From assembly GCA_014706385.1 (NCBI GenBank), contig JACGZH010000008.1:1364001-1428000 (forward strand): a DNA stretch of 64,000 bases, written 5' to 3'. The translations under genes and the position numbers were made by a program. The notes under the pieces were generated by a model. It saw only the letters and a list, made by a program, of their open reading frames with translations, was not told the DNA's origin and ran no database searches. Shown here in pieces: positions 1 to 9,576 of this stretch; the first letter of the stretch is position 1, and each line of letters begins with the position of its first letter. The DNA is from Phaffia rhodozyma. Taxonomy: Eukaryota > Basidiomycota > Tremellomycetes > Cystofilobasidiales > Mrakiaceae.

Positions 1-14
1 CCGGGCACACACAC

Positions 15-100
15 GCCCCGTTGGCAGAATGGTAACGCGTCTCCTTCCTACTGTCTGGTGAGAGAGGTGAAGATTCTGGGTTCAATCCCCAGGCGGGGTT
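15..100 (+). tRNA. tRNA-Arg-CCT: tRNA-Arg(CCT) with 14-nt intron
   Basis: Acceptor strands GCCCCGT and GCGGGGT pair with G-T at 1-72 and 7-66; T-arm is CTGGG-TTCAATC-CCCAG. The anticodon stem TCTCC/GGTGA has one mismatch at 29-41 and its loop reads TTCCTA, giving anticodon CCT. A 14-nt insert after A37 is a canonical tRNA intron. Discriminator base is T and no CCA is encoded. A T-run follows within a few bases. It decodes AGG. Confidence 0.93.
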
Positions 101-118
101 TCTCTTTTTTTGCGGCGG

Positions 119-243
119 GCGTGGTTGGGGTGTGGTTGGGGCGTGGTTGGGGTGTGAGTGGGGCGTGGTTGGGGTGTGAGTGGGGTGTGAGTGGGGTGTG
201 AGTGAGAATGTGAGTGAGAAGGTGGGTGAGAATGTGGGTGTAC
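119..243. repeat. GT-rich minisatellite spacer
   Basis: Degenerate tandem repeats of the form GTGGTTGGGGTGT and GTGAGTGGGGT followed by GTGAGAATGTGAGTGAGAAG. Number and order of repeats differ between type A copies (1, 3 and 4 nearly identical here) and type B copies (5-7), so it is a useful marker of copy type. Confidence 0.8.
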
Positions 244-332
244 ACGTGAGACGCTTGGTATGCTGGCGGGCTGTAGAGTGTGGACTGTATGCGCAGGGTA
301 TAGGACTGATGTATGTGGACCCTCCCATCAAC

Positions 333-404
333 GGGATGTTCGTATAATGGTTATTATTCCAGATTTCCATTCTGGAGACAGGTGTTCGATTCACCTACAT
401 CTCA
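333..404 (+). tRNA. tRNA-Gly-TCC: tRNA-Gly(TCC)
   Basis: Acceptor GGGATGT pairs with ACATCTC. Anticodon arm CCAGA-TTTCCAT-TCTGG gives anticodon TCC with no intron. T-arm AGGTG-TTCGATT-CACCT; discriminator A. Decodes GGA, and GGG by wobble. A CCCATC motif lies about ten bases upstream, and a run of T follows. Confidence 0.95.
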
Positions 405-572
405 TTTTTGTCATTTTTTTTTTGTGCGCGTGGCGGGGGCGGAGGCGGTGGCAGTACAAGACACTGTGCGGACGGCGGCAAGACTCTGAGGCACACGACC
501 GGGGCGTGGGAGGGGCTAGTTGGGTGGCGGCGTTGGTGTCTAGGGGTACGGGCCGGGCTGGGGACTATAACC

Positions 573-666
573 GCCCTGTTAGCTCAATCGGTAGAGCGTC
601 AGACTCTTACCCAGTCTCTTGACAGTTGGCATCTGAAGGCTGGGGGTTCGACCCCCCCATGGGGCT
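573..666 (+). tRNA. tRNA-Lys-CTT: tRNA-Lys(CTT) with 21-nt intron
   Basis: Acceptor GCCCTGT pairs with ATGGGGC; anticodon stem TCAGA/TCTGA; loop CTCTTA then a 21-nt intron, then A38. Anticodon CTT reads AAG. T-arm GGGGG-TTCGACC-CCCCC. The base after position 72 is T, unusual for tRNA-Lys. No Lys(TTT) gene was found in the unit, so AAA must be read by a gene elsewhere. Confidence 0.93.
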
Positions 667-697
667 AGCTTCGTTTTTGTGTGTCGGTGTGATTTTT

Positions 698-720
698 TGT
701 TTCTGTTTCTGTTTCTGTTT
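698..720. repeat. TTTCTG hexamer repeat
   Basis: Three tandem TTTCTG units in copy 1; copies 5 and 6 (type B) have more units and copy 7 a scrambled version. It sits in the spacer between Lys(CTT) and Ala(AGC). Confidence 0.8.
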
Positions 721-884
721 TCGTTCTTTGTGTTTTTGTTTGCTGGCTTGGTGTGCGCTTGGTGGGCCGTCGACGGTGGAAGGGTGCATGGAGGGTTGAA
801 CAGAGGTGAGAGGTGGGTCGGCTGGTGGGTCGCGCGGGCATGTCTGACGATCTGGGCTGGTAGCACGGACAGACAGACACACAC

Positions 885-957
885 GGGGATTTAGCTCAGT
901 TGGCAGAGCGCAATCTTAGCATGGTTGAGGTCGTGAGTTCGATTCTTACAATCTCCA
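885..957 (+). tRNA. tRNA-Ala-AGC: tRNA-Ala(AGC)
   Basis: Acceptor GGGGATT pairs with AATCTCC and includes G3-T70, the known identity pair for alanyl-tRNA synthetase. Anticodon arm CAATC-TTAGCAT-GGTTG gives AGC, expected to be read as inosine at position 34. T-arm GTGAG-TTCGATT-CTTAC, discriminator A, no intron. A T-run begins two bases after the gene. Confidence 0.96.
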
Positions 958-1166
958 CTTTTTTGTGTCGTTTTTGTGTGTTTTTTTGTGTTTTTTGGTA
1001 GTCTTTTTTTTTTTTCCGCCCGCTGCCTTTTTTGCACTCTCTTCTTTCGCTCTGCTCCTCTCGGTCATGCTCCGTCCTGCCCACCACATCACACACCATG
1101 TGTTGCACCGAGACAGGCCGGCTGCTGCGAGCACACTGGCCGACCGGCCGGACAGGCCTTCATCCA

Positions 1167-1259
1167 GGTGAGGTGGCCGAGTGGTCTAAGGCGCTGTGTT
1201 AAGGCTCTTTCTATGCCCCGCAGTCAGTAATGGCGCGAGTTCGAATCTCGCCCTCATCA
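1167..1259 (+). tRNA. tRNA-Leu-AAG: tRNA-Leu(AAG) with 13-nt intron
   Basis: Class II tRNA with long variable arm. Acceptor GGTGAGG pairs with CCTCATC. Anticodon stem CTGTG/CGCAG holds TTAAGG, a 13-nt intron, then C38. T-arm GCGAG-TTCGAAT-CTCGC; discriminator A, as in leucine tRNAs. The body is nearly identical to Leu(TAG) at 1965-2063, which suggests recent duplication or conversion. Confidence 0.95.
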
Positions 1260-1430
1260 CTTTTTGTCCGGCCGGCACGGGCCGTGCCTCTCGGGTCTGC
1301 CTGGCCGGGCTGTGCTCTCAGGTGCGGTGCCATGGTAGTATGATGCCACGTTGCAACACTGCCACACCCCCTTGCTGTCTGCCGGTCCGTTTTGGACTGT
1401 GGACTGAATGAACAGACCGTACAGCATCCA

Positions 1431-1501
1431 ACAGCTGTGGTGAAATGGTATCATTGGTGCTTGCCATGCACTAGGCCGGGGTTCGATTCCCCGCGGTTGT
1501 A
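1431..1501 (+). tRNA. tRNA-Gly-GCC: tRNA-Gly(GCC)
   Basis: Anticodon arm GGTGC-TTGCCAT-GCACT gives GCC, the main reader of GGC/GGT. T-arm CGGGG-TTCGATT-CCCCG. Acceptor ACAGCTG pairs with CGGTTGT, so the first pair is A1-T72 where glycine tRNAs normally have G1-C72. No intron; discriminator A; a long T-run follows. Confidence 0.93.
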
Positions 1502-1692
1502 TCCTTTTTTTTTCTCGTCCCACACACCGATCGGCTCTGTGCTGGCGGGTGCACATCTGCCGATCGTCCGTGTTCGGTCTCGCCGGCTGGTGCGATGATG
1601 GTGTGTGCTGCCGTTCGGACGAGCAGTGCGTCTGTGCCGACACAGGGGCAGGACACGAAGGACGTACCGACGCGCTCGGTGGACACCAACCG

Positions 1693-1765
1693 TCCTTCTT
1701 AGCTCAGTTGGTAGAGCGCGACACTAGTAATGTCGAGGTCAGTCGTTCAAATCGGCTAGCAGGAA
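1693..1765 (+). tRNA. tRNA-Thr-AGT: tRNA-Thr(AGT)
   Basis: Anticodon arm CGACA-CTAGTAA-TGTCG gives AGT. T-arm AGTCG-TTCAAAT-CGGCT. Acceptor TCCTTCT pairs with AGCAGGA except for a T-C mismatch at 5-68, the same in all copies. No intron; discriminator A. The first pair is T1-A72. Confidence 0.92.
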
Positions 1766-1888
1766 CATTCTTCTTTTTTTTTATTCTCCGTTCATTTCCG
1801 TTCATTTCTTCTTCTTCTTTTTCTGTTGTATCCTTCCCTGTCGCCCCGGCGGGCGTCTGGTCGACGCGTGCTCGTTAGGGTTCCGCAC

Positions 1889-1950
1889 AAAGCACAGCAC
1901 CACACCACACCACACACCACAAACGACACCACAAACAACACCACAAACGC
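1889..1950. repeat. CACCACA/ACAAAC repeat
   Basis: Low-complexity spacer made of CACCACAC and ACCACAAACRAC motifs between Thr(AGT) and Leu(TAG). It is stable in most copies and shortened in copy 6. Confidence 0.7.
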
Positions 1951-1964
1951 AGGGAAAGCATGCT

Positions 1965-2063
1965 GGTGAAGTGGCCGAGTGGTCTAAGGCGCTGTGTTTA
2001 GGTCTCTCTTCCGAGTCCAGACCGCAGTCAGTAATGGCGCGAGTTCAAATCTCGTCTTCATCA
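1965..2063 (+). tRNA. tRNA-Leu-TAG: tRNA-Leu(TAG) with 19-nt intron
   Basis: Class II tRNA. Acceptor GGTGAAG pairs with CTTCATC; anticodon stem CTGTG/CGCAG; loop TTTAGG then a 19-nt intron then C38. T-arm GCGAG-TTCAAAT-CTCGT, discriminator A. Only 35 bp separate it from Ala(CGC), and the T-run between them is just four bases, so partial readthrough is possible. Confidence 0.95.
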
Positions 2064-2098
2064 TTCCTTTTGTCCCGGCCGGGGGGGGCAGGGCAGCT

Positions 2099-2180
2099 GG
2101 GGATTTAGGCTAGTTGGTAAACTGGACGCTTCGCACTGTCGATCATGTGTCATTCCTGGGTTCGATTCCCGGAGTCTCCA
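2099..2180 (+). tRNA. tRNA-Ala-CGC: tRNA-Ala(CGC) with 10-nt intron
   Basis: Acceptor GGGGATT pairs with AGTCTCC and keeps the alanine identity pair G3-T70. Anticodon stem GACGC/GTGTC, loop TTCGCA, a 10-nt intron, then T38. T-arm CTGGG-TTCGATT-CCCGG; discriminator A. A dedicated CGC isoacceptor fits a GC-rich genome. Confidence 0.92.
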
Positions 2181-2337
2181 TCTCTTTTTGGTGTGTTTCG
2201 GTGTGTTTTGTTTTATCTTGGCGTATTTGATTTCGTTGCATTTCATATGGCATGTTGTGTGTCGTGTTCTGTGTGTCTTCTCTTGGTCTGCTGCCCACCG
2301 GCTTGTGCTCACCGCTCACCGAGCGGCGTCCATCCAA

Positions 2338-2447
2338 GGCCGTTTGGCGGAGTGGTCTAACGCGGTAGCCTCGAACGAGTCCCCTCTGTGGGACGACGCG
2401 ACAGCTACTCTTCTCTGAAGGCGTAGGTTCAAATCCTACAGCGGTCG
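2338..2447 (+). tRNA. tRNA-Ser-CGA: tRNA-Ser(CGA) with 27-nt intron
   Basis: Class II tRNA. Acceptor GGCCGTT pairs with AGCGGTC; discriminator G, the usual base for serine. Anticodon stem GTAGC/GCTAC with loop CTCGAA then a 27-nt intron. Variable arm around TCTTC/GAAGG; T-arm GTAGG-TTCAAAT-CCTAC. Decodes TCG. Confidence 0.94.
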
Positions 2448-2590
2448 TCCTTTCTCTTTTTCTTTTTGCCCACTTCCGTTCTCTCTGCCTTCTGTCGCGT
2501 CGATCCTTCCTTGCTGTCTGTGTTTGCTGTCTCCGCATGCTCACACCCCCGCCAGGCAGACAGACAGACGGGCTGACGGGCTGCCATCGT

Positions 2591-2684
2591 GCGTGATTGG
2601 TGTAGTGGTATCACGCCAAGTTTGGGCACACTTTCTGCCGTGCACATCTCTTGGAGGTCTTCGGTTCAATCCCGGAATCGCGCC
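2591..2684 (+). tRNA. tRNA-Pro-TGG: tRNA-Pro(TGG) with 22-nt intron
   Basis: Acceptor GCGTGAT pairs with ATCGCGC; discriminator C, typical of eukaryotic proline tRNAs. Anticodon stem CCAAG/CTTGG, loop TTTGGG, then a 22-nt intron and T38. T-arm TTCGG-TTCAATC-CCGGA. It is the last plus-strand gene before the convergent polypyrimidine region. Confidence 0.95.
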
Positions 2685-2820
2685 TTTTTGTTCGGCCCGT
2701 CTGGGCGGGTGGCGTGGTCGGTGTAGGGTTACTTGCTGTGTCAGTTGCTGTGTTACTTGCTGTGCTACTCATAGGATTACCCGCCACATAGCGTCCGCTG
2801 TTACCCTATGCTGTGTACTC
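2685..2820. other. Conserved spacer with crossing inverted repeats
   Basis: First part of a 448-bp stretch without a tRNA. GGCGGGT (2704-2710) can pair with ACCCGCC (2779-2785), and TAGGGT (2724-2729) with ACCCTA (2803-2808); these helices would cross, as in a pseudoknot. TTACTTGCTGTG-like repeats lie between. The block ends at a long T-run, so a polymerase III transcript is conceivable, but I see no known RNA family. Confidence 0.35.
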
Positions 2821-2948
2821 TTTTTTTTTTTCTTTTTTCTTTTTCCTCTCCCGTTTTTTCTTTGTCCTCTGTTTTCCTCTTTTTTCCCTTCTTTTTTCCC
2901 TTCTTTTCCCTCTTTTCCCTTTTTCTTCTTTTTTCTTCTTTTTTTTCT
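2821..2948. repeat. Polypyrimidine tract, copy 1
   Basis: 128 bp of T and C only, built from TTTTTTCTTC and TTTTCCC motifs. It is the most length-variable part of the unit. The sequence beyond it (2950-3132) switches to A-rich, so T-runs face both strands between the converging Pro(TGG) and permuted Arg genes. Confidence 0.85.
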
Positions 2949-3037
2949 GTCAACGATAGATGCATCAATATAGAAAGAGAAAAAGACATATGGCAGAAAG
3001 ACAACAGCATAACAATGGCAACACAGTAAAAACATAG

Positions 3038-3070
3038 CGAGAACACAACGAGAACACAACGAGAACACAA
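3038..3070. repeat. CGAGAACACAA repeat
   Basis: Three tandem 11-bp units in copy 1, two in copies 3, 4 and 6. Copies 5 and 7 have a T variant in one unit. It lies in the A-rich half of the convergent spacer. Confidence 0.8.
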
Positions 3071-3132
3071 CCATGCAATGCAATGCACCAGCAACACAGT
3101 GTCAACACAACAGAAAGACCAAAACAAAAGAA

Positions 3133-3288
3133 GGCAAAGATCCTCGTAGTCAGACGCCTTACCGCTGGGCCACTCGGCCAGAGCGAATGGGTGGTGGGAC
3201 CACTAGACCAAGACGGGGTTCGAACCCGCGATTTCCTGATGCATACAAGCTGGCAGCCGGCCATGACGACCGTTCCACCATCTTTGCC
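3133..3288 (-). other. Flanking inverted repeat of the permuted tRNA gene
   Basis: On the minus strand the 5' flank contains GGCAAAGAT (3288-3280) and the 3' flank ATCTTTGCC (3141-3133), a perfect 9-bp complement that brackets the permuted arginine gene. The 3' arm starts two bases after A37; the 5' arm lies 39 nt before A38. The 5' flank also has TCGT, able to pair with ACGA of the anticodon loop. Such pairing would bring both splice sites together. TTTT runs just beyond 3133 on the minus strand can terminate polymerase III. Confidence 0.65.
3144..3240 (-). tRNA. tRNA-Arg-ACG: Circularly permuted tRNA-Arg(ACG)
   Basis: Read on the minus strand, the 3' half comes first: A38, stem strand TCAGG, variable AAATC, T-arm GCGGG-TTCGAAC-CCCGT, acceptor CTTGGTC and T73 (3240 down to 3205). 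A 25-nt spacer follows (3204-3180). Then comes the 5' half: acceptor GGCCGAG, TG, D-arm GCCC-AGCGGTAA-GGC, G26, TCTGA and CTACGA ending at A37 (3179 down to 3144). Joining 37 to 38 restores all arms: GGCCGAG pairs with CTTGGTC through seven pairs, two of them G-T, and TCTGA with TCAGG. Anticodon is ACG. In known permuted genes a splice at 37/38 makes a circle that RNase P and tRNase Z open. CCA is not encoded after T73. All seven copies keep this layout. Confidence 0.85.
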
Positions 3289-3407
3289 TTTAGCTTTCGT
3301 CTGGTTGTGTGGATGTATGGCCAAGTGGATGTGTGGGCGTTGGCTCTGCTAGGGTTATCCGAGGCGGTGGGCGTCCGGCCGATCCGTCCGATCGCCCATC
3401 GGATATC

Positions 3408-3428
3408 GGACGTCGGACGTCGGACGTC
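3408..3428. repeat. GGACGTC heptamer repeat
   Basis: Three tandem GGACGTC units upstream of Val(CAC); present in every copy. Confidence 0.8.
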
Positions 3429-3473
3429 GAGCCCCGGAGTACGGAGCCCGGCGGAGAAAAGGCCGTGTCGATC

Positions 3474-3557
3474 GGTCGCCTGGTCTAGTGGTATGACGCT
3501 TGCTTCACATCTCACCCGGTGCGCAATAGGTCGCCAGTTCGATCCTGGCGGTGACCA
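3474..3557 (+). tRNA. tRNA-Val-CAC: tRNA-Val(CAC) with 12-nt intron
   Basis: Acceptor GGTCGCC pairs with GGTGACC; T-arm GCCAG-TTCGATC-CTGGC; discriminator A. Anticodon stem CTTGC/GCAAT has a mismatch at 27-43; loop TTCACA then a 12-nt intron and C38. Decodes GTG. It is the only plus-strand gene between the permuted Arg gene and a block of four minus-strand genes. Confidence 0.92.
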
Positions 3558-3777
3558 TGACGTCTTTTTGCCCTCAGCACACGGCCACGATGGACAGACC
3601 GAGAGAAGCCATCGCAAGATAAGATGCATGATAAGATACACAGCCAGCCGACAGAGATGGCAGATAAGATCGACAGACACGATCGATCGGCAAGAAAGAA
3701 AGAAGATAAGATGGCGATAAAGACAAAAGACAAAAGACAAAAGATACAAGATAAAAGCCAGGTCGGCAAAAAGACAA

Positions 3778-3877
3778 GGCGCGATCCCGGGATTGAACCG
3801 AGGACCTCCGTCAGACACGTGTTTCATGCGAGCCAGCAAAGCCCGAAGACGGCGTGATACCACTACACCAATCCCGC
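3778..3877 (-). tRNA. tRNA-Pro-CGG: tRNA-Pro(CGG) with 28-nt intron
   Basis: Acceptor GCGGGAT pairs with ATCGCGC apart from G-G at 4-69; discriminator C. Anticodon stem CCGTC/GACGG, loop TTCGGG, then a 28-nt intron, the longest in the unit, and T38. T-arm CTCGG-TTCAATC-CCGGG. The body closely matches Pro(TGG) and Pro(AGG), while the introns differ. Confidence 0.94.
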
Positions 3878-3926
3878 CAGTGATCGCACAGGCCTGGCCG
3901 GTCAGTTTGTCGGTCTCCAGCCGGCC

Positions 3927-3942
3927 GTCCGTCCGTCCGTCC
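3927..3942. repeat. GTCC tetramer repeat
   Basis: Four GTCC units between Pro(CGG) and Ile(TAT). Confidence 0.75.
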
Positions 3943-3956
3943 GGGAGGCAAAAAGA

Positions 3957-4054
3957 TACTCCATATGAGGTTCGAACTCATGATCCTTGTTAAGCACTAG
4001 AGGCACGGACGGCAACCTATAAGAACAATGCGATAACCACTTCGCCAATGGAGT
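3957..4054 (-). tRNA. tRNA-Ile-TAT: tRNA-Ile(TAT) with 25-nt intron
   Basis: Acceptor ACTCCAT pairs perfectly with ATGGAGT; anticodon stem TTGTT/AACAA; loop CTTATA, then a 25-nt intron and T38. Anticodon TAT reads ATA. An intron in Ile(UAU) is common in eukaryotes. T-arm ATGAG-TTCGAAC-CTCAT, discriminator A. Confidence 0.95.
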
Positions 4055-4077
4055 AAAGGTAAGCGTCGGTGGAAAAA

Positions 4078-4113
4078 GACGAGACAGGACGAGACAGGAC
4101 GAGACAGGACGAG
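4078..4113. repeat. GACGAGACAG decamer repeat
   Basis: About three and a half units in copy 1. Type B copies replace the first unit with GACGAGAGATGACAAGACAG; copy 4 has an intermediate form. Confidence 0.8.
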
Positions 4114-4216
4114 AGAAGGCCGCACCGGACGGCACACGCCAGACCGGGCCGAGTCCGACAGAAGACGGCACAGGCGGCAGGAGGAAGGACGGGAAAAAGA
4201 GGGCAAAAAAAAGGAA

Positions 4217-4300
4217 AGGTCCTACTCAGATTCGAACTGGGGATTCGAGAAGGTGAGTCAATCAGAATCTCGCGTGATAACCAACTTCAACCATAGAACC
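4217..4300 (-). tRNA. tRNA-Gln-CTG: tRNA-Gln(CTG) with 10-nt intron
   Basis: Acceptor GGTTCTA pairs with TAGGACC; discriminator T as in eukaryotic glutamine tRNAs. Anticodon stem CGAGA/TCTCG, loop TTCTGA, then a 10-nt intron and T38. T-arm CCCAG-TTCGAAT-CTGAG has one C-A mismatch. Copy 1 has an extra base in the D-stem strand (GTTG instead of GTG), absent from the other copies, so this copy may be damaged or misassembled. Confidence 0.9.
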
Positions 4301-4492
4301 GGTCGTTGTCGGCCTATTGCCCTCGCGAGTCTCGTTCCGGCGGTGTGTCCGCTGGCAAGGGTCCGTCGGCGCGTGTCCGCTGGCAGGTGTGCTTACATCG
4401 CTGGCCGACCTGTCCGCCCGCCGCACGTGGCCCGGCCGGCATGACACGCACGGCCGACCCGATACACACAGCGGACATCGGAGCAAAAAGCA

Positions 4493-4565
4493 AGCCCAAA
4501 CGCGGATTTGAACCACGGACCTCACCGTTACGAGCGGCGCACTATAACCACTTAGCTATTCGGGC
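4493..4565 (-). tRNA. tRNA-Thr-CGT: tRNA-Thr(CGT)
   Basis: Acceptor GCCCGAA pairs with TTTGGGC; anticodon arm CGCCG-CTCGTAA-CGGTG gives CGT with no intron; T-arm CGTGG-TTCAAAT-CCGCG; discriminator T. Decodes ACG. No Thr(TGT) gene is present in the unit. Confidence 0.95.
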
Positions 4566-4717
4566 CTGGTGCCCGTCGCCCGGTCGTGGTTGTCTCTAAC
4601 GGTGTTGGTGTGTCGATGTGTTGGTGTACCGGTGTGGTCAGGACCCGGCCCACACCGTCCGCTCGGCCAGACGTAGCCCATCGAGGTCGACCGCCGGGGC
4701 GGCTGGGCAGTCAACGT

Positions 4718-4804
4718 GCCTGGGTAGTTTAGTGGTAAAACGTAGGTCTCATACCGTCACCCGAGTGTGATCCTCAGCCGCGAGTTCGATTCTCGCTCTG
4801 GGCA
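4718..4804 (+). tRNA. tRNA-Met-CAT: Elongator tRNA-Met(CAT) with 16-nt intron
   Basis: Acceptor GCCTGGG pairs with TCTGGGC and starts with G1-C72; T-arm GCGAG-TTCGATT-CTCGC has a normal T-loop, so this is the elongator form. Anticodon loop CTCATA is followed by a 16-nt intron and A38. The anticodon stem TAGGT/TCCTC is weak, with mismatches at both ends; the T-T at 31-39 resembles other elongator Met tRNAs. Confidence 0.9.
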
Positions 4805-4920
4805 ACCCTTTTTTTTCCTCTTTTGCTGTGTTTCCCATCCTTCCTGATGGTTGGTGGGCGGCCGGGCTGGGCCAGGCGGAGGTGCGGTCGGATCCGGCCG
4901 TCAGATGGGCTGAGCATGAC

Positions 4921-5000
4921 GGCAGTGGAAGTGGAAGTGGCGGCGGTGGCGGTGGCGGTGGCGTCGGCAGTGCTGATGACGACGACGACTGCTGCTGCGC
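4921..5000. repeat. GGAAGT/GGC/GAC triplet-rich repeat
   Basis: Runs of GGAAGT, GGCGGT and GACGAC before Tyr(GTA). Copies 1-4 have two GGAAGT units, copies 5-7 one. It is non-coding despite reading as poly-Gly or poly-Asp. Confidence 0.75.
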
Positions 5001-5052
5001 AGAGTCCGCTTGGACGAGAATCTATCCGGACAAACGGTGCTGGCACCATACC

Positions 5053-5139
5053 CGCCGCTTAGCTCATCTGGAAGAGCGTTGGTTTGTAAAGGATACACTT
5101 GTTCACCGAAGGCACTCGGTTCGATCCCGAGAGCGGCGA
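5053..5139 (+). tRNA. tRNA-Tyr-GTA: tRNA-Tyr(GTA) with 14-nt intron
   Basis: Acceptor CGCCGCT pairs with AGCGGCG, giving C1-G72, the eukaryotic tyrosine identity pair; discriminator A. Anticodon stem TTGGT/ACCGA; loop TTGTAA then a 14-nt intron and C38. T-arm CTCGG-TTCGATC-CCGAG. Tyr(GUA) genes carry an intron in nearly all eukaryotes. Confidence 0.95.
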
Positions 5140-5360
5140 TCTTGTTTTTTTGCCTTTTGCTTTTGTTCTTTTTTGTTCTTTTTTTTCTGCCTTGTGGCTG
5201 CTTCCTCTTTGACTGCTAGGGTTCCTGCCTTCGGTCCAGTCCGGTCGCTCTCACGCAGCATGCGCACTGTCTCGGCCAGACGGGCGATGCGACCGATGAC
5301 GTTCTCCCAGCTGCTGCTGCCGATGTAGTGGTCACCGGGGCAGGGCAAGCGATCATATCT

Positions 5361-5458
5361 GGCCGATTGGTGTAGTGGCTATCACAGCAGTTTCGGTACT
5401 CGTCCGCAAGGTCGTCTTCGCTCGCTGCTGGTCGTCGGTTCGATCCCGACATCGGTCT
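5361..5458 (+). tRNA. tRNA-Arg-TCG: tRNA-Arg(TCG), anticodon-loop base missing in this copy
   Basis: Acceptor GGCCGAT pairs with ATCGGTC; T-arm GTCGG-TTCGATC-CCGAC; T73. In copies 2-7 the anticodon stem GCAGT/GCTGC holds TTTCGG, giving TCG, followed by a 26-nt intron. Copy 1 has one T fewer, so the loop reads TTCGG and the anticodon frame is lost or shifted. This copy is either a variant gene or carries a homopolymer error. Confidence 0.88.
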
Positions 5459-5684
5459 AAATGTTCACTTTTTGTGTCCCCCTTTCTTTTTGCCCTCTTT
5501 TTTGCCCTCCTTTTTGCCCTTCTTTTTCTCTGCACGCTCTCTCTGCACTCTGTTTCTATCGGCCCGTTGTGTGGGTCACTGTCTGTCCGACCGGTCTGGC
5601 CTGTGTGCGCGTGTCCACCACGGTCGAGCCAGGTCGACACAGCTCCCTGTGGTGGGGCAGGCAGACGGGCGGGAAAACAAAAAA

Positions 5685-5758
5685 AGACCCATACCCGACT
5701 TGAACGGATGACCTCAAGATTTGGAATCTTGCGCTGCTACCAACTGAGCTAATGGGTC
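5685..5758 (-). tRNA. tRNA-Trp-CCA: tRNA-Trp(CCA)
   Basis: Acceptor GACCCAT pairs with ATGGGTC; anticodon arm CAAGA-TTCCAAA-TCTTG gives CCA; T-arm ATCCG-TTCAAGT-CGGGT; discriminator T. No intron. A T-run lies just downstream on the minus strand. Confidence 0.95.
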
Positions 5759-5914
5759 GCTTGCCCGGGGCCTCCGTGCCCAGAGGGTATGTCGAGCGCC
5801 CGGCTGGCTGGCCGTACAGACGGTGGCACCATGCGGCCGGCTTGCAGGCCTCCAGCACGGACGGCCGGACGGGGGCCAGGGAAAAAACCGAGGGAAAACG
5901 AGCAAAAAGACATG

Positions 5915-5986
5915 TTGCCAAGGCCCGTCTCGATCAGGCGACCTCCGGGTTATGAGCCCGGCGCGCTTCCACTGCGCTACTTGGCA
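5915..5986 (-). tRNA. tRNA-iMet-CAT: Initiator tRNA-Met(CAT)
   Basis: Anticodon arm CCGGG-CTCATAA-CCCGG carries the three G-C pairs typical of initiators, and the T-loop reads ATCGAGA instead of TTCGA, a eukaryotic initiator hallmark. Acceptor TGCCAAG pairs with CTTGGCA. The first pair is T1-A72, reversed from the usual A1-T72 of eukaryotic initiators. No intron; discriminator A; CCCATC motif upstream. Confidence 0.95.
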
Positions 5987-6045
5987 TTGATGGGAGACCA
6001 TGGCTGAGGAGTGTGTATGTGGTGTCGGCCGCAGGTCACGTGCCG

Positions 6046-6126
6046 GTGTCGATGTCAGTGTCGACGTCAGTGTCGATGCCAGTGCCAGCACCAGTGTCAT
6101 TACCAATGCCAGTGTCAATGCCAGTC
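6046..6126. repeat. GTCGATGTCAGT-type 12-bp minisatellite
   Basis: Degenerate 12-bp units (GTGTCGATGTCA, GTGCCAGCACCA, GTGTCAATGCCA) before Ile(AAT). Copy number is nearly constant across the seven units. Confidence 0.75.
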
Positions 6127-6194
6127 ACACCATCGACTGGTGCGACCGACGGTACACCTGGCCATGGTCTGCCGGGTGGGCCTGACAGTCATCG

Positions 6195-6268
6195 GATCGA
6201 TTAGCTCAGTTGGTTAGAGCGTGGTGCTAATAACGCCAAGGTCGCGGGTTCGACCCCCTCATTGATCA
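6195..6268 (+). tRNA. tRNA-Ile-AAT: tRNA-Ile(AAT)
   Basis: Acceptor GATCGAT pairs with ATTGATC; anticodon arm TGGTG-CTAATAA-CGCCA gives AAT; T-arm GCGGG-TTCGACC-CCCTC has one mismatch at 50-64. No intron; discriminator A. A T-run starts just after the gene. Confidence 0.95.
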
Positions 6269-6524
6269 CTTTTTCTTTCTTTTTCTAATTTTCGCCATCT
6301 TTTTTTGCCATCTTTTTTGCACCCCTCCTGTTCTCGACCGTTGCGGTCTGTGTGGCATTGTTGTCGACTGGCACGCTCCATGGTGAGCGATGCAGTGTTG
6401 TGACGGTGTGACGATGTGGTGGTGCGGTGGCGACGATGGGAACGCAGATATACACCCGGCTGTGCTGGACAGTGTCCGACCAGACATGGGCCTATGGTGT
6501 CCTGGCTGGGCTGGGAGGCATCGT

Positions 6525-6611
6525 GCATGCTTGGTGTAGTGGTATCGCGCCATGTTAGGGTCTTTGCGCCTTGTCTCATGGAGGTCCTCAGTTCAATCCT
6601 GGGAGCGTGCC
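6525..6611 (+). tRNA. tRNA-Pro-AGG: tRNA-Pro(AGG) with 15-nt intron
   Basis: Acceptor GCATGCT pairs with AGCGTGC; discriminator C. Anticodon stem CCATG/CATGG, loop TTAGGG then a 15-nt intron and T38. T-arm CTCAG-TTCAATC-CTGGG. With Pro(TGG) and Pro(CGG) it covers all proline codons. Confidence 0.95.
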
Positions 6612-6806
6612 TTTTTCCTTTTCCTTTCGTTCTTTGTTTCCTTTTCCCGAGCGCTTCCTGTCGCTCTTCGTTGTTTTCTGCCACTTTTCACTCACTTTTT
6701 GCCACTCTCCGCCACTTTCTCGGCAGCAGACAAGCGATGTGTGCACCCGGTGGAGACGTCTCTGACGCATGGACAAGGTGTCTGGACACGGATGACAGCC
6801 ATCAAG

Positions 6807-6878
6807 TCCTCAATTGTCTAACGGCTATGATAACCGCCTCTCACGCGGTAGGCCCGGGTTCGACTCCCGGTTGGGGAT
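6807..6878 (+). tRNA. tRNA-Glu-CTC: tRNA-Glu(CTC)
   Basis: Acceptor TCCTCAA pairs with TTGGGGA (T1-A72 as in other eukaryotic Glu tRNAs); anticodon arm ACCGC-CTCTCAC-GCGGT gives CTC; T-arm CCGGG-TTCGACT-CCCGG. The discriminator is T, whereas Glu(TTC) in the same unit has A. Confidence 0.94.
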
Positions 6879-7094
6879 CTCTCTTTTGGTCTTTTCTTTT
6901 GCTCTCGTTTCTTTTTTCTTTTTTTCCTTGTCCTTCTTTCCTTTCGTCTTGTTTTTGTATGTCCGTTCTGACCACTGGTATCAGCGCTGGTGTGTGCCTG
7001 CGGGTACTGTGTGGTTGAATGCACGGTATGGGGTGCATGCACCGGCCAGCTGTCCAGCCACCTGGCGAGCGGACAAGGCTGACATCCAACCGAC

Positions 7095-7166
7095 TCTTGG
7101 ATGGTCTAACGGTTATGATTTCCGCCTGTCACGCGGGAGACCGGGGTTCGACTCCCCGTCCGGGAG
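7095..7166 (+). tRNA. tRNA-Asp-GTC: tRNA-Asp(GTC)
   Basis: Acceptor TCTTGGA pairs with TCCGGGA; discriminator G, the aspartate identity base. Anticodon arm TCCGC-CTGTCAC-GCGGG gives GTC; T-arm CGGGG-TTCGACT-CCCCG. No intron. A T-run follows three bases after. Confidence 0.96.
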
Positions 7167-7544
7167 CACTTTTTGCCTTTTGCTCCTCTCTTTTGTACTT
7201 GCATTTGTACTTGCATTTGTACTTGCATTTGTACTTGCATTTGCATTTGCATCTGTTCTTTCCATTCTCTTTTGCTGTACAGCTGTATGGTTGTCTTGCT
7301 TTGTTGTGTTTGTCCGTCGACGGCCATCGATCGTTATCTTTTTTTTCTTTGGTCTGTATGTCTCCTTCTTTTTCTCTTTCTTTTTCTTTTGCTCTCTTTG
7401 ACGGCGCATGTTTGGCAGCACACGCTCCGAAAGACGCACCGAGCACAGCACAGCACGCCGACACGTGTGCGCTGGGCAGACCAACTGGCTGGATGGCTGT
7501 TGAGCACAGGCTATGGGCAGTCGATCGGCAGACCGAGACCATAC
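7167..7544. other. 378-bp spacer without a gene
   Basis: Contains the TTGTACTTGCAT minisatellite (7193-7253), a pyrimidine-rich run near 7340-7400 and a CACAGCACAGCA stretch near 7443. No tRNA signature or known RNA gene was found on either strand. Confidence 0.7.
7193..7253. repeat. TTGTACTTGCAT minisatellite
   Basis: Four 12-bp TTGTACTTGCAT units then TTGCAT hexamers in copies 1-3. Copies 4-6 have two 12-bp units and more hexamers, a clear marker of type B. Confidence 0.85.
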
Positions 7545-7628
7545 GCTGTCTTAATCAAGTGGTCTACGATGAGAGGATTAGAAATCTCTTCCTCTTTGAG
7601 GGCGCAGGTTCGAATCCTGCAGACAGCT
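7545..7628 (+). tRNA. tRNA-Ser-AGA: tRNA-Ser(AGA), one base longer in this copy
   Basis: Class II tRNA. Acceptor GCTGTCT pairs perfectly with AGACAGC. In copies 2-6 the anticodon arm is AGAGA-TTAGAAA-TCTCT, giving AGA; copy 1 has an extra G in the 5' stem strand. Variable arm TCCTC/GAGGG; T-arm GCAGG-TTCGAAT-CCTGC. The base after position 72 is T, not the G usual for serine. No intron. Confidence 0.9.
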
Positions 7629-7856
7629 TTCTTTTGCACCCTGTACTTTGCCACCGTGGCCTTTGCTCTTTTTGCTTTTTTTTTTTCTCCTTCTTCTTCT
7701 CTTCTATGCCTTTGCCTATGTGTGTCTATGGTTGTCGTTCATGTATGCATAGTACGCACACACCGGGCAGCCAGCCCCCCAAAAAAAAAAGACGGCCACA
7801 CCATCGAAGCCATCCTCACTGACACACAGAGCGAGGACCGGAAAAAAAAAAAGGGA

Positions 7857-7942
7857 TGCCGTCAGCCTGAATCGAACAGGCGACCTTATGATTGCGGACA
7901 GATGTCTTCAGTCATACGCTCCACCAATTGAGCTATGACGGC
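7857..7942 (-). tRNA. tRNA-Phe-GAA: tRNA-Phe(GAA) with 13-nt intron
   Basis: Acceptor GCCGTCA pairs perfectly with TGACGGC; anticodon stem TATGA/TCATA; loop CTGAAG then a 13-nt intron and A38. T-arm GCCTG-TTCGATT-CAGGC; discriminator A. The minus-strand T-run after the gene is 8-10 bases long. Confidence 0.95.
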
Positions 7943-8138
7943 CGGTGACAGTCAGCGCCGTCCATCAGGCCATGGCCCGTCTGGGTGGCTGTCGGGCCGT
8001 CGGACCACTCAGCTGGCACTCACTCGGTCGGTCTCCAGCCGGGTCGGTGTGTGTGCTGACGCGGCAGGCAAAACATGCTGGGCACTGACCGTCAGCGTGT
8101 GCTGTCTGAGTGCTCGGACACAGCAGGCGACCATCCCA

Positions 8139-8211
8139 TGCCCTGTAGCTCAGTTGGTAGAGCGTGGAGCTGTTAACTCCAAGGTCTACGGTTCGAGCCC
8201 GTACGGGGCAG
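8139..8211 (+). tRNA. tRNA-Asn-GTT: tRNA-Asn(GTT)
   Basis: Acceptor TGCCCTG pairs with CGGGGCA; discriminator G; anticodon arm TGGAG-CTGTTAA-CTCCA gives GTT; T-arm TACGG-TTCGAGC-CCGTA. No intron. Downstream TTTTTGTCGTC is single in type A and repeated in type B copies. Confidence 0.95.
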
Positions 8212-8374
8212 TCTTTTTGTCGTCTTTTTGTCTCCTCATTTTTTTTCCCTCTCCCTTTCCTGTGCAGTACTTCCCCTCTCGTCTTCTGCCGTCCATGAGG
8301 TGTGCGTGTTCTTGGTATGTTCTTGCGATGGACATCATCCATCTTCCACCAGCATGCTCGGCCGGCAAGAAAAA

Positions 8375-8447
8375 AGGAGTCACCCGGGATTGAACCAGGG
8401 ACCTGCTGGGTTGCAACCAGCCGCAACTACCGCTGTGCTATAACTCC
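8375..8447 (-). tRNA. tRNA-Cys-GCA: tRNA-Cys(GCA)
   Basis: Acceptor GGAGTTA pairs with TGACTCC; discriminator T, the cysteine identity base. Anticodon arm GCTGG-TTGCAAC-CCAGC gives GCA; T-arm CCTGG-TTCAATC-CCGGG. No intron. Confidence 0.95.
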
Positions 8448-8639
8448 GTATGAGGCTGCCGCGCCATCGGACAGATCATCCACAGGCACGCTTGCACACA
8501 TGCACACAGCACAGTGGCAGCCGCTTTGTCGTCCTGCGATCGAGTAGTGGCAGCTGTGGACGCAACATCGCCCGGTGCGACCAGGCCGGCGTCACAGATG
8601 CTGCATCTGCACAGAGAAAACAAAAGGAACAAAGGAGCA

Positions 8640-8715
8640 GAAAAAAAGAACAAGAAAAAAGAGCAAGAAAAAAGAGCAAGAAAAAAGAGCAAAAAGAACA
8701 AAAAGAACAAAAAGA
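8640..8715. repeat. AAGAAAAAAGAGC repeat
   Basis: Purine-rich repeats of AAGAAAAAAGAGC and AAAAAGAAC upstream on the plus strand of Val(AAC), which means T-rich downstream of that minus-strand gene. Unit number and A-run length vary in every copy. Confidence 0.8.
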
Positions 8716-8716
8716 G

Positions 8717-8788
8717 TAGTCGCACCCAGAGTCGAACTGGGGTCGTGAGTGTGTTAGACTCAAGTGATAACCGTTACACCATGCAACT
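8717..8788 (-). tRNA. tRNA-Val-AAC: tRNA-Val(AAC)
   Basis: Acceptor AGTTGCA pairs with TGCGACT; anticodon arm TGAGT-CTAACAC-ACTCA gives AAC; T-arm CCCAG-TTCGACT-CTGGG; discriminator A. No intron. TCATC motif upstream. Confidence 0.95.
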
Positions 8789-8980
8789 CTGATGACTGCC
8801 GGTCTCTGCCCAGTATCCTACTCATCGACCAGGCACCGCTCGCTCCGCCGTCTGCCCGCCCGCCGCTGTGTGTCCATCGGTCGGCCGGCCCATCAGCCCG
8901 ATCGTGCGACACCGGGACCATGCCTGCCGACAAGCTGGCCCTCAGACGAGGCAGCCCGGGGAGAAAAACAAAAAGGATCG

Positions 8981-9053
8981 TTCCCCATCCGGGAGTCGAA
9001 CCCGGGTCCTCAGCGTGAAAAGCTGATATCGTAAACCGTTTGACCAATGAGGA
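8981..9053 (-). tRNA. tRNA-Glu-TTC: tRNA-Glu(TTC)
   Basis: Acceptor TCCTCAT pairs with ATGGGGA; anticodon arm TCAGC-TTTTCAC-GCTGA gives TTC; T-arm CCGGG-TTCGACT-CCCGG; discriminator A. No intron. Shares its T-arm and most of the acceptor with Glu(CTC). Confidence 0.95.
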
Positions 9054-9080
9054 CTAGTACAAGCACGCCGAATCGGTCGA

Positions 9081-9120
9081 GTCGTCTGCAGTCGTCTGCA
9101 GTCGTGCGCAGTCGTGTGCA
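9081..9120. repeat. GTCGTCTGCA decamer repeat
   Basis: Four 10-bp units (GTCGTCTGCA twice, then GTCGTGCGCA and GTCGTGTGCA); the same in all full copies. Confidence 0.85.
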
Positions 9121-9193
9121 GCCTGCTCCGTCGTGCGGTAGGCTGTGAGCGGGTGGCCGCCGGTCAGCATGCTTCCGACCGGACGGCAAAAAG

Positions 9194-9266
9194 TGGACCC
9201 AGCAGGGATTGAAACCCGCGGCCTTTCGCATGCAAAGCGAATGTGATACCACTACACCATAAGCCC
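9194..9266 (-). tRNA. tRNA-Ala-TGC: tRNA-Ala(TGC)
   Basis: Acceptor GGGCTTA pairs with TGGGTCC and again has G3-T70, the alanine identity pair. Anticodon arm TTCGC-TTTGCAT-GCGAA gives TGC; T-arm GCGGG-TTCAATC-CCTGC; discriminator A. Copy 1 has one extra base in the T-loop compared with copies 2 and 3. Confidence 0.92.
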
Positions 9267-9307
9267 GTGTGGGATGGAGGCGTGGTGTGTCGGCCGGTGG
9301 GGCGAAG

Positions 9308-9333
9308 TGCGGTGAGGTGCGGCGAGGTGAGGT
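9308..9333. repeat. GCGGTGAGGT repeat
   Basis: Two to three units in copies 1-3; expanded to six or more GCGGT(GA/AA)GGT units in copies 4-6. Confidence 0.8.
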
Positions 9334-9405
9334 CTGGTATGATGCTATCAGAAACAGAGTCTTGGTTGCAAAACCACACGGAACCTCTCGGCGGGGGGCA
9401 AAAGA

Positions 9406-9487
9406 TGAACAGAGGGGGATTCGAACCCCCGCATCTTGCGATATCAGAACTTGAGTCTGACGCCTTAGACCGCTCGGCCATCTGTCC
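9406..9487 (-). tRNA. tRNA-Leu-CAA: tRNA-Leu(CAA)
   Basis: Class II tRNA. Acceptor GGACAGA pairs with TCTGTTC; anticodon arm TCAGA-CTCAAGT-TCTGA gives CAA; T-arm GGGGG-TTCGAAT-CCCCC; discriminator A. It has no intron, although Leu(CAA) is intron-bearing in many eukaryotes and the other two Leu genes here have one. Confidence 0.95.
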
Positions 9488-9514
9488 GGATGGGGTGCGT
9501 GAGGTGTGTGTGGG

Positions 9515-9537
9515 TGCGGGAGTGTGCGGGAGTGTGG
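9515..9537. repeat. GCGGGAGTGT decamer repeat
   Basis: Two units in copies 1-3 and four in copies 4-6, at the junction to the next array unit. Confidence 0.85.
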
Positions 9538-9576
9538 GCCGGGTAGAGCGAGTGCACCCTGCCCGGGCACACACAC

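Follow-up and report, generated by a model that had tools for sequence, protein, structure and literature searches.

The window, i.e., the whole 64,000-nt stretch of Phaffia rhodozyma DNA that was analysed, is a tandem array of ~9.6-kb units near the end of a contig, in a genome of 19.8 Mb and 15 contigs. Each unit contains, among its tRNA genes, a locus that carries the two halves of a tRNA-Arg(ACG) in permuted order. The features of the first unit that bear on this locus are the following, all on the minus strand except for the unit itself:

1..9562, no strand assigned: array unit of ~9.6 kb, in which 33 ordinary tRNA genes and the permuted gene were counted
3131-3290, minus strand: whole locus as read from the sequence (leader, 3′ half, spacer, 5′ half, trailer)
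3241..3290, minus strand: leader, similar to a tRNA 5′ half in having an in-register A-box, D-stem, and CTGCCA loop
3280..3290, minus strand: leader strand of an 11-bp leader/trailer helix, AAGGCAAAGAT
3270..3280, minus strand: A-box-like TGGTGGAACGG; the B-box of the 3′ half follows 54 nt downstream
3252..3279, minus strand: predicted leader hairpin GGTGG-AA-CGGTC-loop-GGCCG-G-CTGCC, −12.0 kcal/mol
3205..3240, minus strand: tRNA-Arg(ACG) 3′ half, nt 38-73, comprising A38, TCAGG as the 3′ strand of the anticodon stem, the T-arm GCGGGTTCGAACCCCGT, CTTGGTC as the 3′ strand of the acceptor stem, and T73; 44 copies counted genome-wide
3216..3226, minus strand: B-box GGTTCGAACCC inside the 3′ half, by sequence
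3180..3204, minus strand: 25-nt spacer separating nt 73 from nt 1, without TTTT
3144..3179, minus strand: tRNA-Arg(ACG) 5′ half, 36 nt spanning nt 1-37, with the acceptor GGCCGAG, a D-arm, and CTACGA in the anticodon loop
3131..3141, minus strand: trailer strand of the 11-bp helix, ATCTTTGCCTT
3121..3129, minus strand: candidate Pol III terminator TTTTGTTTT, the first TTTT after either half

The segment for nt 38-73 precedes that for nt 1-37, and the order, the halves, and the 25-nt spacer are as the earlier note had described them. Rejoined at 37/38, the halves give a standard cloverleaf with the eukaryotic conserved bases and no encoded CCA, and ARAGORN calls the rejoined 72 nt as tRNA-Arg(acg), with seven acceptor, three D, five anticodon, and five T pairs, in agreement with the complete cloverleaf that had been claimed for this junction. 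The rejoined tRNA also aligns with the human and yeast tRNA-Arg(ACG) sequences. A normal-order, intron-bearing tRNA at the locus was rejected, since linear ARAGORN, with introns allowed or not, found no tRNA there. The gene had been said to occur in every unit, and it is present in seven of the seven units of the window; the sequence shows that each array unit seen carries a permuted tRNA-Arg(ACG) gene of type II (37/38). By its arrangement, the locus is a permuted tRNA gene, whose expression and processing we infer. Because the second half is encoded before the first, this tRNA would be usable only after rearrangement of the RNA by the cell.

A strict permuted-cloverleaf scan of the window, in which G-U was counted as a pair, returned this locus alone, in five of the seven units, where all seven acceptor pairs and all five anticodon-stem pairs are present; the two units that it missed have one extra base in the variable loop. 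At the loosest setting, six of the seven copies were returned together with three copies of one spurious pairing, that of a Leu T-arm with the adjoining Ala gene (9/12 pairs, 139-nt gap). The scan covered tRNAs with short variable loops in the window, Ser and Leu being outside its scope, and a T-arm scan of unit 1, which misses some known T-arms, found no other unexplained T-arm. Moreover, the covariance search for permuted tRNAs that the earlier note had proposed was run with a model (R1) made of 10 other tRNAs of this genome permuted in silico, with the Arg(ACG) gene excluded. This model ranks the seven window copies first, five at 47.7 bits and the others at 41.9 and 39.5 bits, against 28.7 bits for the next best (235 matches at E up to 10), and the match groups ranked directly below these copies have coordinates that overlap ordinary tRNA genes. 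A chance origin was rejected on the basis of this ranking and of the 300 dinucleotide-shuffled units, which gave no match at the strict setting and none at the loosest.

Across the genome, the 3′ half adjoins the 5′ half in permuted order in 44 of the 44 copies. The 5′ half occurs at 42 sites without mismatch (by pattern), at one with a deletion, and in one error-rich unit, and the 3′ half at 41 exact sites, at two with an insertion, and in the error-rich unit. A normal-order Arg(ACG) gene elsewhere, which the earlier note had named as the case that would count against this locus, was absent from pattern and DNA searches of the genome, which a strongly diverged copy could escape. All 42 matches of an A-box-to-CTACG pattern lie inside arrays, and a CTACG-to-B-box pattern gave 49 matches genome-wide, 10 of them outside arrays; the eight of these 10 that were inspected hold no Arg(ACG) gene, and the matched letters of the other two are identical to those of C10:15192 (L051). 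One Lys(TTT)-like gene (by eye) and three members of an orphan T-arm family are among the non-array matches. A looser pattern, GCGNNNNNCTACG, gave 167 matches, and the non-array ones, among the 100 listed, are no more numerous than the 251 of a reversed control. When the rejoined gene was used as a DNA query of the genome, each of the 80 matches was to a single half (40 of the 44 candidates scored).

The orphan family is a tRNA 3′-half-like sequence, GGTTCGAATCCTGCCAACTCCA, with three copies (C10:15192, L051 near 1500; C13:8730; C14:1186904) that lie close to contig ends, Arg(TCT) genes, and TTAGGG-containing sequence. The subtelomeric T-arm at L051 was discarded as a second permuted gene, with no partner half within 900 nt. 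Dispersed normal-order tRNA genes are also found outside the arrays, and the 13 recorded among the 63 of 2082 candidates scored (L009-L021) are Arg(TCT), Thr(TGT), Ala(AGC), and Met(CAT).

The arrays are located on nine contigs (C4-C7 and C9-C13), either near the ends of large contigs or seemingly making up whole small ones. About half of the ordinary tRNA genes of unit 1 have introns in our parse. The Val(tac) that ARAGORN places at 573-665 is better parsed as Lys(CTT) with an intron, and 5361-5458 can be parsed, partly by eye, as Arg(TCG) or as Pro(CGG). A CATC/CAAC-like motif, perhaps a Pol III start site, stands just 5′ of 23 of the 33 tRNA starts (e.g., 325-332, 1423-1430, and 6799-6806), as counted with a loose pattern and without a control, and it is absent directly upstream of the permuted leader. 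The codons CGU and CGC are expected to be read by Arg(ACG). Both are in use in P. rhodozyma, where CGA is the preferred codon (PMC4404019). The 2016 genome paper gives only 49 tRNAs with 12 anticodons (PMC5103461) and, therefore, the arrays are probably missing from that assembly.

Our preferred reading, to which we give a probability of about 0.8, is that the locus houses a functional, circularly permuted tRNA-Arg(ACG) gene, probably the sole source of this tRNA in Phaffia rhodozyma. The order of the halves, the rejoined cloverleaf, the terminator pattern, the copy number, and the low variation are all properties of the DNA itself. The best surviving alternative, which we consider improbable, would be a dead remnant, in which an intron-bearing Arg(ACG) gene was duplicated in tandem, lost its outer halves, and has been kept by homogenisation while another gene supplies the tRNA. 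However, no normal-order Arg(ACG) gene was found by patterns or DNA query, the rejoined tRNA keeps intact stems (acceptor 7/7, anticodon 5/5, T 5/5, and 3 D pairs), TTTT is found only after the 5′ half, and the locus varies less than all 45 intergenic windows compared.

The variation was assessed in 42 of the 44 copies; the reference unit is one of these, and the two omitted are C10:1858033 and the copy in the error-rich unit. Across the 42 copies, the 157 nt of 3133-3289 contain one substitution and nine indel cells, and the 45 overlapping intergenic windows of 157 nt, several of which are simple repeats, contain 11-413 substitutions and 21-2539 indel cells. In the 25-nt spacer, there are no substitutions and four inserted bases, all from one copy. 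The zero substitutions of the leader are common to 30 of 265 intergenic windows of 60 nt, and its low substitutions and indels are jointly matched by three of the 265. The ordinary tRNA genes in the compared stretch show 0-7.6 substitutions per kb, with an intergenic mean of 8.3 per kb. Part of the low variation may come from array homogenisation, which limits what it demonstrates, and the dead remnant gains from the near-identity of the array copies in and around the locus, where conservation may in part be the result of concerted evolution.

The remnant is also favoured by a non-standard pairing at the junction and by a cloverleaf that is not the minimum-energy fold. The leader and the trailer contain a perfect complement of 11 bp, and not the 9 bp of the earlier note, whose coordinates drop the outer two pairs; such a complement is reached by four of 5000 shuffles and also by one of the 32 other tRNA genes. 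The helix stands 2 nt from the 5′ splice site and 39 nt, including the predicted hairpin, from the 3′ site. Thus, of the proposal that the flanks bring the splice sites together, the helix itself holds, but it does not abut both sites and the intron pairing typical of the array is absent. In 16 of the 17 intron calls of unit 1, nt 32 pairs with intron position −3 (G-U counted; at least three parses doubtful), whereas at the permuted junction C32 lies opposite U(−3), and in a constrained fold C32 pairs with G(−2), with a 6-bp UACGAG/CUUGUA helix beyond. The structure in which the cloverleaf core is enforced lies 9.6 kcal/mol above the minimum, and this cost, the C32/U(−3) mismatch, and the C32-G(−2) pair make the hBH motif imperfect. 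When the acceptor and T stems alone are enforced, the permuted RNA lies 9.0 kcal/mol above its minimum, and 10 ordinary tRNAs without flanks lie at 0-9.8 kcal/mol (eight of them at 0). The whole precursor is stabler than its shuffles (z −2.2, with one of 200 as stable), yet its minimum-energy structure is not the cloverleaf. As proof, minimum-energy folding was set aside as not decisive. The mature tRNA, once rejoined, does not exceed its shuffles in stability, and the leader hairpin is weak evidence because 95 of 1000 shuffles are equally stable.

The first TTTT lies 14 nt past the 5′ half and 75 nt past the permuted 3′ half, whereas in 33 of the 33 ordinary tRNA genes of unit 1 it lies 0-10 nt from the 3′ end; since no TTTT occurs until 14 nt past the 5′ half, both halves are probably on one transcript. 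Each half is whole on its own segment, as would be the case in a split tRNA with halves transcribed separately and then trans-spliced, but the halves share one strand, 25 nt apart and with no TTTT between them (within 10 nt in all 33 ordinary genes), and the leader/trailer complement spans both of them, indirect evidence that makes this arrangement very unlikely.

The 5′-half likeness of the leader was evaluated against 34 tRNA 5′ halves, among which its best local match is Asp(GTC), with 23 of 32 positions and no gaps, a score equalled by none of 1372 overlapping intergenic windows and by 0.0045 of 2000 shuffles. The scores are 28 for Asp, 24 for Val, 21 for Gly, and 14 for Arg, the last being ordinary (0.36 of 2000 shuffles as high). 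As the leader has no special likeness to the Arg 5′ half, and Asp, Val, and Gly score higher, the view that it is simply a decayed copy of that half is unsupported. The 5′-half rules that we set (U8, D-stem, A14, GG, U33, and R37) are matched in unit 1 by 30 annotated tRNA starts and by six other sites, namely, the Arg 5′ half, the leader, and four more, two of which sit at most 11 nt from a tRNA start. Judged by eye, the spacing of the A-box and the B-box at the permuted locus fits a gene with an intron of ~10 nt, and no TATA-like box was seen, by eye only, upstream of the locus. A normal-order chimera made of the 5′-half-like leader, a ~10-nt intron, and the Arg 3′ half, with the downstream 5′ half as a leftover, would suit the in-register A-box, D-stem, and CTGCCA loop, after which come ~10 nt and A38, as well as the 6/7 pairs (by eye) of GGCAAAG/CTTGGTC, although these are out of register with U8 (3/7 in register), but linear ARAGORN finds no tRNA at the locus and the anticodon stem GCCGG/TCAGG has 3/5 pairs (by eye) against 5/5 for the Arg 5′ half, and we regard it as the least probable of the alternatives.

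In a working permuted gene, RNA polymerase III would produce a single transcript that runs from the leader through the 3′ half, spacer, and 5′ half to the trailer and ends at TTTTGTTTT, and TFIIIC may rely on the A-box-like sequence of the leader plus the B-box in the 3′ half. The leader would pair with the trailer, and the halves would form a cloverleaf with its open ends in the anticodon loop. The tRNA splicing endonuclease would then cleave after nt 37 and before nt 38, tRNA ligase would seal nt 37 to nt 38 to give a circle, and RNase P and tRNase Z would excise the 25-nt spacer, followed by CCA addition. The same processing pathway is described for algae (PMC3978253). The P. rhodozyma genome has family matches to the tRNA endonuclease (PF01974, two), the Trl1-type ligase (PF08302, one), and TFIIIC Tau95 (PF09734, one, partial); no match to the light-harvesting family PF00504 was found in it. 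An algal host was rejected on this absence and on a 469-aa phosphate-transporter ORF that shows 100% identity, over 96% of the query, to a protein of Phaffia rhodozyma, a basidiomycete in the order Cystofilobasidiales.

Inverted A and B boxes are stated to be unsuitable for TFIIIC (PMC3978253, section 5). The leader could supply an A-box and so restore the promoter order destroyed by the permutation, an idea that was formed after the data had been seen. A more specific version of it, which we put forward tentatively and with the odds somewhat against it, is that the fungal permuted gene depends on TFIIIC through the upstream Asp/Gly-like 5′ half, in A-then-B order, the Arg gene being lodged within what is left of a second tRNA gene. 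Such remains would comprise a 7-bp acceptor-like GCAAAGA/TCTTTGC, a D-arm, and an anticodon loop, as though they had received a copy of a permuted or circular Arg precursor. If true, this reading would answer how permuted tRNA genes can be transcribed in organisms that lack a TATA-driven system.

Permuted tRNA genes are listed for unicellular algae, a nucleomorph, and one archaeon (PMC3978253), the type II (37/38) genes being those of Cyanidioschyzon merolae, Ostreococcus, Micromonas, and the Bigelowiella natans nucleomorph (PMC3978253, Table 1). The P. rhodozyma gene has the same half order and the same 37/38 junction as these algal and nucleomorph genes, and its 25-nt spacer falls inside the 1-74 nt range of that table, where Arg(ACG) is absent among the 34 permuted genes. 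As in C. merolae, a T-stretch is present only after the 5′ half (PMC3978253, section 4). The archaeon Thermofilum pendens shares the permuted order, but its junction is 59/60 and CCA is encoded, whereas the fungal gene is joined at 37/38 and has no CCA (PMC3978253). In the tRNA-Cys of Ostreococcus lucimarinus, a possible intermediate, an extra 5′ half also lies beside the permuted gene (PMC3978253, section 10); there it is downstream, whereas in P. rhodozyma it is upstream and nearer to Asp, Val, and Gly than to Arg.

In contrast to the algal type II genes, that of P. rhodozyma is hosted by a basidiomycete fungus, belongs to tandem arrays near contig ends with 44 counted copies, has an A-box-like 5′ half in its leader upstream of the B-box, and shows an imperfect hBH motif at the junction. 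Arrays of tRNA genes also lie at chromosome ends in Entamoeba. Like those of P. rhodozyma, the Entamoeba arrays are tandem, but they contain up to five tRNA genes per unit, as opposed to the 34 counted per ~9.6-kb unit here, and the opening of the abstract of PMC2652664 mentions no permuted gene in them. The literature searched, mostly outside subscription journals, yielded no fungal case of a permuted tRNA gene. The fungal host, the array setting, and the leader appear to be new with respect to the known permuted genes.

The linear ARAGORN search that misses the P. rhodozyma gene and the only 49 tRNAs given in the 2016 paper (PMC5103461) suggest why permuted genes stay hidden. A fungal case would bring permuted tRNA genes into an astaxanthin yeast that is grown industrially, and the A-box-like leader makes their transcription directly testable. 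Moreover, a fungal case would suggest that a permuted tRNA gene needs no enzymes beyond those for splicing and end processing in a non-photosynthetic cell that contains TFIIIC.
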